NCBI GenBank assembly: GCA_945883545.1
Contig: CAMCXT010000002.1
Span: forward strand, 62,001-126,000
Source of the DNA: Chitinophaga pinensis
GTDB taxonomy: Bacteria > Bacteroidota > Bacteroidia > M30B66
Direction: 5' to 3'
DNA length: 64,000 nucleotides
Below are positions 50,890 through 54,429 of this stretch, piece by piece. Both the position numbers and the translations under genes were made by a program. The notes below the pieces were generated by a model. The model had not been told where the DNA came from. It saw only the letters and a list, made by a program, of their open reading frames with translations, and made no database searches. Each line of letters opens with the position of its first letter. Within the stretch, counting starts at the first letter, position 1.

Positions 50890-53277
50890 TTAGTTATTGA
50901 TGACCAACTTCTTTGTGATTAAGCCTTTTTCAGTAACAAGGTTCACCAAATAAATTCCGCTAGCAAGATCGTTAGTTGGGAACGTGATGCGTTCCTTATC
51001 AACTTGTTGAAGCGTTTTAGTGAAAAGCACTTGGCCTTGAGCGTTCATCAAACTTACCGTAGCATCAAGTGTTTCGAATAAGTTGAGTTCGATATTTACT
51101 TCTGTTGTAGCAGGATTCGGGATGAGAGCAAAGTAATTCTGCTTGTCATAATTCCTTAAACCAGTAACGTCATATTCCCAACACTGACCTCCAATAACGG
51201 TTGTAGTTGTTGTCATCATAGCGCTTACTACATCTACGATTCTATCGATGCAAATCGTGTCGCTAGATAATTCGTAGTAATGTACACGCAAGATTGTTGT
51301 TGGCTCGTAGTACTTACGAATCATTGAATCTTGGTATGAAATACCGATCACTTTGTTTCCACCAAGAACGAATTCTGGTTGAATTGGATATTCTACAGGA
51401 TCAGCTAAGTTCTCAACATCCCAAATGTAAACACCGCTCAATTCAAATTCGTAAGCAGTAACGCGTGTTGAAGGATTGGTGATTCCGATGTCTACAAACT
51501 TCTCACTAAAATCAACATTCATGATTTCCAGTGTAACAGTATCTGCTGCATTCAAGGAGCCTCCTGGGAAGTTACAGTGGTCGTGTGGTGCATTTCCGGT
51601 ATGCGCATGGGTTGAGCCATAATTTACGCAACTTGAAATCAAAGCAGCATCATAAACGCTAATTCTATTGTCTTGGTTAATGTCGTTGCAGGCAGTTGCT
51701 AAAATATCATTGCCTAGGATTTCATCTACATAGGTGTGAGAGTCGTTCAAATCTTGGTAACCGTTCACATTCAAGTCGCCCATGATACGTGTTCCGGCGC
51801 AGTTTCCTTCGCAATCCAATTGTGCAGAACCAAAAACTTCACCTGAGCAATCTGTGTATGCAGGACAATCGTCTAACACTTCAATCGTTCGGTTTCCATT
51901 GGCATCTCTTCCAAGGTAAACGCAAACCTGCGCCCAGTTGTTGGCGTGAGAAAGTTCGATACGTCCAAGTGCATCTGCGGCATTGTCCCAGTTTACGCGA
52001 ACCACCATGGTATAACGACCAGTGTCGATTTCTGTAATATCCATCCACTGACAATCGAGCCCAGACCCATAAATATCCCCGCATTGGCGGGAAATACCCA
52101 TATTGGCACAGCCGTATTGCGCATTTCCACCATCTCCACATTCAAGATCGAGTACGCAAAAACCGTTTTTGAAACCAACCGGAATTGCTTGACCTTGTTG
52201 ATCGTACATAATGTATTCAGCATAACCTTCGTAGTGCCAGTGGCCGTGGCAGTTGCCCCAAGAAAACTGTGTAGGTTGAGCTGTAGGAGAACCGATGTAA
52301 TAATCGGCAGTTCCGATATTCTTGATGTGTGTCGTGAAACGAATAATATCGCGTGTACCAAAACCGGTTAAACAGCCTTCTACAACTTGGCAATTGGTTG
52401 CATTGATAGTTGCTAAGTAGATTGATGTTTTGATGGTGTTTTCTAGAACGATTAAGTCGGGACGGCCGTCTGGACAAAGTGGATTTCCTTCGTAGTAACA
52501 AACATCATCGACAGTAGCGATAGGATTGAAGTTACAAGCAGTTGGATCCATGCAACCTGAAACAGGGCCATTGTAGCTCAGCGACCAGTTAATCGCTCCT
52601 GTGCAGCTTTCAGAAGCATCGCCAATACGGATATAATACGAAACGCCAGCTTCCATAAGAGCATTTACACGTGCTTGTTGCCCGCATCCACCGCTGTTAT
52701 CGTCATAGTAAATGGTTCCTTCGTTAGAGTTTGTAACAAGTAAACCAGCACAGTGGTCGTACACCCAGATTTTTGTATCGCAGGTATTGTTTCCACAAGT
52801 GGAGATGAAGTACATCCCAGTTGAATCGGGAGTGAATTCGTACCAAGTATTTCGTGCTGGAGCGGTGAATTGTCCTGGAATAGCTGTGAGTGCAGAGTTG
52901 CAGTCTTGACCTGGAGGGCAATTAAACTGCACCGTTTGACCAGTTCCGTAGTTTCCTCCGGTTGCTACAGTATCGCCAGCAAGCACAATGTAGAAAGAGC
53001 CATTTCCATATTGGCAGCATATACCATCACCCGCTGAGTCGTTGATTTGAAATGTGAGGCAATTTTGCGGAGCCACACATAGCGTTGTGCCAGAAGATGT
53101 TCCTGATGCCAATTGCGTGCTTCCTGAAGACAACGTCCAAGAAGTTTCTTGAGGATATTGGTCTGGATTGATGATTACCTGAACAGAAAGTTCTCCTGCG
53201 GGACACTGAGCAGAAACCAAATATGGCATCGTAAAGCCCAGTAAAATCAGACAAATCTTGTGTAGAGATGTTTTCAA
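50890..53277 (-). CDS. Secreted lysyl oxidase-like protein with T9SS sorting domain
   Basis: A 795-residue exported protein with a signal peptide (to about residue 23). A beta-rich, Cys-rich N-terminal part (24-240) follows, then a GCMDPTACNFNP segment (241-252). A lysyl oxidase domain (about 270-456) has three copper His in CHGHWH (344, 346, 348), K370 in GFKNGFC and Y403 in DIYGSGLDCQW. These match the Lys-Tyr pair that forms the LTQ cofactor in animal LOX. A dockerin-like EF-hand pair lies at about 498-553 (DLNVNGYQDLND, DINQDNRISVYD). The last roughly 80 residues (from YFALIPNPATTEVNIEL) are a type A T9SS C-terminal domain. It would be secreted by the machinery encoded at 17.9-23.7 kb. 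Confidence 0.92.
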   Translation of the reverse strand: MKTSLHKICLILLGFTMPYLVSAQCPAGELSVQVIINPDQYPQETSWTLSSGSTQLASGTSSGTTLCVAPQNCLTFQINDSAGDGICCQYGNGSFYIVLAGDTVATGGNYGTGQTVQFNCPPGQDCNSALTAIPGQFTAPARNTWYEFTPDSTGMYFISTCGNNTCDTKIWVYDHCAGLLVTNSNEGTIYYDDNSGGCGQQARVNALMEAGVSYYIRIGDASESCTGAINWSLSYNGPVSGCMDPTACNFNPIATVDDVCYYEGNPLCPDGRPDLIVLENTIKTSIYLATINATNCQVVEGCLTGFGTRDIIRFTTHIKNIGTADYYIGSPTAQPTQFSWGNCHGHWHYEGYAEYIMYDQQGQAIPVGFKNGFCVLDLECGDGGNAQYGCANMGISRQCGDIYGSGLDCQWMDITEIDTGRYTMVVRVNWDNAADALGRIELSHANNWAQVCVYLGRDANGNRTIEVLDDCPAYTDCSGEVFGSAQLDCEGNCAGTRIMGDLNVNGYQDLNDSHTYVDEILGNDILATACNDINQDNRISVYDAALISSCVNYGSTHAHTGNAPHDHCNFPGGSLNAADTVTLEIMNVDFSEKFVDIGITNPSTRVTAYEFELSGVYIWDVENLADPVEYPIQPEFVLGGNKVIGISYQDSMIRKYYEPTTILRVHYYELSSDTICIDRIVDVVSAMMTTTTTVIGGQCWEYDVTGLRNYDKQNYFALIPNPATTEVNIELNLFETLDATVSLMNAQGQVLFTKTLQQVDKERITFPTNDLASGIYLVNLVTEKGLITKKLVINN

Positions 53278-53451: not shown

Positions 53452-54429
53452 CTAGAATCCCGCTAAAACCGGTTTGTTGTCAAGAATTAACTCGATTTCT
53501 TGGTTTAATTCTGGAATGATGAGGTGAATTTTTTCGAGCGATTGAATGTTGTCGAGCAGGTGGTTTTTCTTCGACGCACCCAAAATTACCGTACTCACAT
53601 GAGGGTTTTTCAAGCACCAAGCAATCGCCAATTGAGGCAAAGTGATGCCAGTGTCTTTGGCTAGTTTTTCCAGCTTTCGTGTTTTGTCGAGGTTCGATTC
53701 GGTGAGCACTTTTTCTTTGAGCCATTCGAGTCCATCGATGCCGAGGCGCGTGTCGGTTGGGAAGCCGTTGTTGTATTTTCCTGAGAGAATGCCCGATGCC
53801 AATGGCGACCAAATGGTAGACCCATAACCCAGTTCATCGAAAACGCGTTTGTATTCTAGCTCGAAACGGTAACGGTGAAGCATGTTGTACTGTGGTTGCT
53901 CCATGGTTGGAGGAATGAGGTGCTCGCGGCGTGCGATGGCAAAAGCCTCTGTAATTTCTTGAGCGCTCCACTCAGAAGTTCCCCAATACAAGATTTTGCC
54001 TTGGCGAATCAGATCATTCATTGCCCAAACCGTTTCTTCGATTGGGGTTTCAGGATCTGGACGATGGCAAAACAACAGATCTAAATAATCCAATTGGAAA
54101 CGCTTCAGCGCAGCTTCACAGCCTTCCATGATGTGTTTTCTCGACAATCCAGTTTGGTTGGGCTTGTCGCCTCCCCAGAAAAGTTTGCTAGATACCACGT
54201 AGGTTTGGCGGTTCCATTGCACTTTTTTGAGGATGTTGCCCATCACGATTTCACTTTTTCCACGTGCGTAGATTTCGGCATTGTCGAAAAAATTGATCCC
54301 GCTGTCGTATGCGGTGATCATGAGTTCTTCGGCGACATCGTCGGAAATTTGCTTCCCGAATGTGAGCCAAGAACCAAGAGAAAGGGCAGAAACTTTAAGG
54401 CCAGAACGGCCCAAACGACGATATTCCAT
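53452..54429 (-). CDS. Aldo/keto reductase (potassium-channel beta-subunit/YghZ-like)
   Basis: A 325-residue TIM-barrel NADPH oxidoreductase. It has MEYRRLGRSGLKVSALSLGSWLTFG, then YDSGINFFDNAEIYARGKSE with catalytic Asp and Tyr, VVSSKLFWGG (Lys), DYLDLLFCHRPDPETPIEETVWAMNDLIRQGKILYWGTSEW (catalytic His) and LAIAWCLKNPHVSTVILGASKKNHL near the C-terminus (NADPH site). The close pattern is to the YghZ/Kv-beta group. The physiological substrate is unknown. The start ATG at 54429 is convincing. It is divergent from korA. Confidence 0.93.
   Translation of the reverse strand: MEYRRLGRSGLKVSALSLGSWLTFGKQISDDVAEELMITAYDSGINFFDNAEIYARGKSEIVMGNILKKVQWNRQTYVVSSKLFWGGDKPNQTGLSRKHIMEGCEAALKRFQLDYLDLLFCHRPDPETPIEETVWAMNDLIRQGKILYWGTSEWSAQEITEAFAIARREHLIPPTMEQPQYNMLHRYRFELEYKRVFDELGYGSTIWSPLASGILSGKYNNGFPTDTRLGIDGLEWLKEKVLTESNLDKTRKLEKLAKDTGITLPQLAIAWCLKNPHVSTVILGASKKNHLLDNIQSLEKIHLIIPELNQEIELILDNKPVLAGF

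Follow-up and report, generated by a model that had tools for sequence, protein, structure and literature searches.

The window analysed here, a 64,000-nucleotide stretch of a Chitinophaga pinensis genome (assembly GCA_945883545.1, contig CAMCXT010000002.1, positions 62,001 to 126,000 of the forward strand), contains a gene whose product combines a lysyl oxidase (LOX) domain with a sorting domain of the type IX secretion system (T9SS). Lysyl oxidases are known as builders of the animal extracellular matrix. The features of the gene are collected in Table 1. Its TTG start is supported by a 92% identical relative at locus L034, which has TTG at the same place. An initial annotation, made from the DNA letters alone, had read the product as a T9SS-exported LOX-like enzyme with a copper histidine triad, a lysine/tyrosine pair, an EF-hand pair, a GCMDPTACNFNP segment and a C-terminal sorting domain; each of these elements was recovered. 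Our analysis goes beyond it with a cohesin fold at residues 574-712, a second LOX gene and a prior report of LOX in Bacteroidetes. The full-length AlphaFold2 model, computed from a 54-row alignment, has a mean predicted local distance difference test (pLDDT) score of 85.

The Pfam family Lysyl_oxidase (PF01186) matches residues 305-450 with an E-value of 7e-32 (111.2 bits against a curated cut-off of 20.4). A phmmer search of the PDB with the whole protein retrieved human LOXL2 (5ze3) at E 1.3e-19, and a profile built from 11 homologous domains retrieved it at 1.3e-35. In both alignments the CHGHWH motif of the window protein lies opposite CHRHYH of LOXL2. The overlay on LOXL2 that the initial annotation had suggested as a check gave a close match, residues 268-469 of the model superimposing on 5ze3_A with a Z score of 22.9 and 2.0 Å over 187 residues. 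The cofactor residues of LOXL2 are H626/H628/H630, K653 and Y689 (PMC9694262); H344, H346, H348, K370 and Y403 of the window protein were found where the initial annotation had placed them and stand in the same order as in animal LOX. The same annotation would have given up its reading if a predicted structure failed to bring K370 and Y403 together. Closeness of the pair in a model is not a valid test, since the two residues are 16.6 Å apart in the LOXL2 crystal structure (PMC9694262).

Relatives were collected with two search patterns that contain none of the five cofactor residues. The domain profile then recognized 113 open reading frames (ORFs) among 113 loci, two loci having none and two having two each. 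All five residues are kept in every one of the 103 ORFs scoring above 80 bits, which amount to 95 distinct sequences and 68 clusters at 90% identity, with a median identity of 56% between clusters. Eight cysteines matching the four disulfides of LOXL2 (573-625, 579-695, 657-673 and 663-685; PMC9180022, Table 1) are likewise present in 103 of 103. Among the 10 ORFs at or below 80 bits, 7 keep the five cofactor residues and 3 are without the copper histidines. The likeness to LOXL2 thus extends to the domain fold, the copper triad, the lysine/tyrosine pair and the eight core cysteines. Judged by sequence and structure model, the window ORF holds a true lysyl oxidase domain with every cofactor residue and is predicted to be an enzyme. 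It is nevertheless different from LOXL2: structural alignment shows 29% identity, SRCR domains were not found in the window protein, equivalents of H623 and H652 are missing from it, and it has a T9SS tail, dockerin-like loops and a cohesin fold.

Residues 720-793 match Por_Secre_tail (PF18962) in Pfam at E 5.3e-13, and the TIGR04183 profile for T9SS type A domains is matched at E 1.6e-13. The model of the sorting domain shares its fold with the C-terminal domains of PorU, mirolase, PorZ and NucA (Z 9.4-10.8), and the domain is found in all 54 aligned homologues. The T9SS parts searched for in the genome, a PorU-type sortase and SprA, are both encoded there (1336 and 563 bits), together with 150 sorting-domain matches among the 178 candidates, 150 of which were scored. 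These data support a predicted T9SS type A cargo, and T9SS parts are encoded in the same genome. The initial annotation is thereby supported in part, as to the LOX domain and the export route; the uses it suggested in surface attachment, matrix crosslinking or biofilm of a gliding bacterium would be conjecture.

Table 1. The T9SS-type lysyl oxidase gene and its features, in window coordinates.
Feature	Residues	Position	Strand	Basis or remark
T9SS-type lysyl oxidase gene	795 aa	50890..53277	(-)	TTG start, stop codon included; no internal stop
Putative signal peptide	1-24	53206..53277	(-)	Hydrophobic helix, SAQ end; read by eye and model helix 2-22
N-terminal beta domain	about 25-119	52921..53205	(-)	Strands in model; no family match in Pfam
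Second beta domain	about 120-240	52558..52920	(-)	Fold of Hathewaya histolytica ColG collagen-binding domain
GCMDPTACNFNP segment	241-262	52492..52557	(-)	Read in sequence
Lysyl oxidase domain	268-469	51871..52476	(-)	Pfam, PDB searches, fold match to LOXL2
Copper triad	H344-x-H346-x-H348	52234..52248	(-)	Kept in 103/103 strong homologues
Quinone-pair lysine	K370	52168..52170	(-)	Aligns with LOXL2 lysine of GHKASFC; 113/113 matches
Quinone-pair tyrosine	Y403	52069..52071	(-)	Aligns with LOXL2 tyrosine of CWDMY; 113/113 matches
Dockerin-like calcium-loop pair	498-556	51610..51786	(-)	Conserved aspartates in 54 homologues
Cohesin-fold domain	574-712	51142..51558	(-)	Separate structure model
T9SS type A C-terminal sorting domain	714-795	50893..51138	(-)	Profiles and fold

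The LOX domain is surrounded by modules that seem suited to binding extracellular proteins. Residues 121-235 superimpose on the ColG collagen-binding domain (VIA-align Z 11.8, root-mean-square deviation 2.3 over 102 residues), a likeness of fold only, at 12% identity. The GCMDPTACNFNP stretch itself covers residues 241-252, and its pattern GC.D..A.N[FY] occurs in 39 of the 54 homologues. The EF-hand-like pair consists of D501-x-N503-x-N505...D512 and D532-x-N534-x-D536...D543, and the model places helices at 510-521 and 541-553 in these two calcium-loop-like repeats. D501, D512 and D543 are kept in 54/54 homologues, D532 in 52 and D536 in 50. Pfam calls Dockerin_1 in five of the 54 (E<=0.01) and not in the window protein (E<=1).

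Directly behind these loops, between the LOX and sorting domains, lies the domain of residues 574-712, which was modelled alone with a pLDDT of 91.3. Cohesins fill the top rows of its structural comparison, with Z scores up to 10.8 and a best Foldseek E-value of 1.4e-5; they include OlpC, CaCohA2, C. perfringens GH84C and an A. fulgidus protein, both cellulosomal and non-cellulosomal, at about 7-15% identity. A PDB profile search (E<=1) gave no sequence link to cohesins and Pfam no match, so the assignment is a result of fold. In contrast to known cohesins, the window protein has dockerin-like loops in the same chain, and its catalytic domain is a LOX rather than a glycosidase. The genome holds two copies of the cohesin-fold domain, both in LOX proteins. 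Since the fold is confined to these two proteins within the genome, a dockerin-like module would find its natural partner in the other LOX or in its own chain. The dockerin-like loops, the cohesin fold and the ColG-like fold all fit a tethered or self-assembling enzyme, which the models make plausible. A more specific proposal, which we consider rather unlikely, is that T9SS LOX proteins would assemble head to tail, or paralogue to paralogue, through their own dockerin and cohesin into a surface layer whose scaffold and crosslinking catalyst would be one and the same protein.

The second LOX gene of the genome, on contig C69, encodes a protein that is 37% identical along nearly its whole length, itself matches the LOX and sorting-domain profiles and has the same layout. 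PF01186 was detected in 4 of 395 genomes sampled evenly across the phylum and in 69 of 247 related genomes, 40 with the type found in the window and 29 with a divergent type only. In the order of genome G411, of which one genus was sampled, LOX was present in 9/9. A relative is encoded on 401 stretches of GTDB contigs. Among the 80 matches listed, 78 bear titles of Bacteroidota taxa, one simply 'bacterium', and one comes from a metagenome bin titled Sphingomonadales; in the tree, the genes of this bin fall within the Bacteroidota. Going by its title, a named strain is also among the carriers: Phaeodactylibacter luteus KCTC 42180 (L113). No relative was found among viral contigs, and the plasmids gave one distant match (Gemmatirosa), used only in the tree. 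In the tree, the type of the window and the other, divergent T9SS LOX-like type form separate groups. On its very long branch (3.5), LOXL2 lies among the Bacteroidota rows without a resolved place, and we therefore draw no conclusion on origin from it.

The divergent family, of about 700 residues with an HxHxHVDDW motif, was seen at L019-L023 and L028-L032, which are loci of other genomes of the class; at L019, L023 and L030 the copper histidines are lost while the lysine and the tyrosine are kept. Two metagenome bins have paired adjacent LOX genes (L096, 4403-7117 and 6900-9596; L105, 732-3446 and 3495-5927). At L108 (7224-12032), L089 (7131-13523) and L095 (3838-7866), LOX lies inside far longer frames, of 1343 to 2131 residues. 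In the window, an aldo/keto reductase-like gene (53452-54429, named by eye) adjoins the LOX gene; it stands beside LOX in several members of the taxonomic family of the window genome, maybe by chance. Outside that family, a comparison of 16 loci, two of them repeat copies of the same contigs, revealed no conserved partner gene.

The LOX family is not new to Bacteroidetes, where it has been in print since 2015. Grau-Bove and colleagues reported it there, among five bacterial clades; they found the cofactor residues conserved, predicted the enzymes to be active and thought it unlikely that these crosslink collagen-like material of bacteria (PMC4448552). Their prokaryotic LOX belong to the same Pfam family as the window protein, and the main text of that paper does not mention Por_Secre. 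HTU-LOX of the archaeon Haloterrigena turkmenica was active as a recombinant enzyme on lysine-containing polypeptides, was inhibited by 3-aminopropionitrile and showed relaxed specificity (PMC6452851). Like the window protein it is a prokaryotic LOX, but an archaeal one. A literature search for a T9SS or dockerin-bearing LOX, with most subscription journals outside its reach, found no paper. The novelty claimed by the initial annotation thus holds in that no characterised T9SS LOX was found, but it was overstated in view of the Bacteroidetes LOX reported in 2015 (PMC4448552) and the active archaeal enzyme (PMC6452851). What is new is the second LOX gene of the same layout, the wide spread, and the dockerin-like loops and cohesin fold between the LOX and sorting domains. 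We regard the protein as a genuine, well-conserved member of a known enzyme family that appears here in a new context, and crosslinking as its most likely role, though an inferred one.

With moderate confidence, we favour a LOX that is exported by the T9SS and held at the cell surface, where it would oxidise lysines and crosslink extracellular protein. The exported, copper-loaded domain would form its quinone from K370 and Y403. Acting on extracellular proteins, it would then convert the side chains of lysines, or other primary amines, into aldehydes and set hydrogen peroxide free; crosslinks in the surface or matrix of the cell itself may arise as these aldehydes condense. The domain of ColG-like fold and the dockerin/cohesin pair could position the enzyme on its substrate or its neighbours.

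Several observations weigh against this. Where LOXL2 has H623 and H652, the window protein has G341 and F369, and the site therefore differs from the animal one. Changing H623 or H652 of LOXL2 to glutamine lowers kcat/Km to 21% and 39%, respectively (PMC9694262, Table 3), while the same change in any one of its copper histidines abolishes it (PMC9694262). Of the 103 relatives, 77 have F and 20 have H at position 369, and most have D, G or V at position 341; the first histidine is described as absent from bacterial LOX (Grau-Bove 2015, PMC4448552). There is also no dedicated operon, the neighbours of LOX being unrelated genes that stay adjacent only within the family of the window genome. The obvious substrate, collagen-like protein, is nearly free of lysine in its repeats. 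Finally, the specificity of HTU-LOX is relaxed, so oxidation of small amines or a peroxide defence is possible.

This last point leads to a reading that we hold possible though doubtful, in which the protein is a secreted broad primary-amine oxidase. It would strip polyamines, amino sugars or amine-bearing antibiotics, yielding peroxide and ammonia, and would serve nutrition or act against competitors without any crosslinking. The substrates of HTU-LOX indeed include numerous primary amines as well as aminoglycosides and polymyxin (PMC6452851), and both the isolated position of the LOX gene and the scarcity of lysine in the collagen-like repeats agree with such a role. However, the binding-type modules found family-wide and the dockerin/cohesin pair suit a large or fixed protein target better. 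That the fold is catalytically dead and serves as an adhesin or copper binder is improbable: the copper histidines are lost in three of the 10 weak matches, which belong to the separate divergent group, whereas the five residues and eight cysteines are invariant in the type of the window.

The enzyme might also crosslink bacterial collagen-like proteins in the manner of animal LOX, as the ColG-like fold could suggest. Collagen repeats were found in 31 of the 40 genomes with the window's LOX type against 71 of 178 without any LOX (Fisher one-sided 1.4e-5), and in 24 of the 29 with the divergent type only. Within families the association drops to a Mantel-Haenszel odds ratio of 2.7 (one-sided p 0.10; 56 genomes, 9 informative families), and 9/40 genomes with the window's type have no collagen match. 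Laminin_G_3, present in 225 of 247 genomes, was uninformative as an association control and supplied family labels only. Counted over Gly-X-Y runs and not over sequence outside the repeats, LOX genomes have 2 lysines in 8592 residues (18 loci, 14 genomes), and genomes without LOX have 47 in 9069 (20 loci, one of them without a run, in 18 genomes). LOX needs lysine, and repeats almost devoid of it are poor substrates. The collagen protein of the window genome itself looks tail-fibre-like by eye. Collagen was thus rejected as the leading substrate idea, as the genome-count association is mostly between families and the repeats are without lysine, and we regard animal-style crosslinking of it as very improbable.

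Locus L127 (2051-5524; G000 contig C51) encodes a collagen-like protein built of Gly-X-Y runs and CWDLDGDGNQDAAEDINADGNWDALDCRG repeats in alternation, followed by a tail-fibre-like end; by eye, CWDLDGDGNQDAAEDINADGNWDALDCRG is an aspartate-rich, calcium-loop-like unit.

The role of prokaryotic LOX has been posed as an open question (PMC4448552, PMC6452851). That question becomes testable with a widespread family whose export route is built in, which has two copies in the present genome and assembly-type domains, and which counts a named strain among its carriers. If the T9SS enzyme does crosslink, bacteria would share with animals the crosslinking of extracellular protein by LOX, and materials work could gain a tool in a secreted LOX of bacterial origin.
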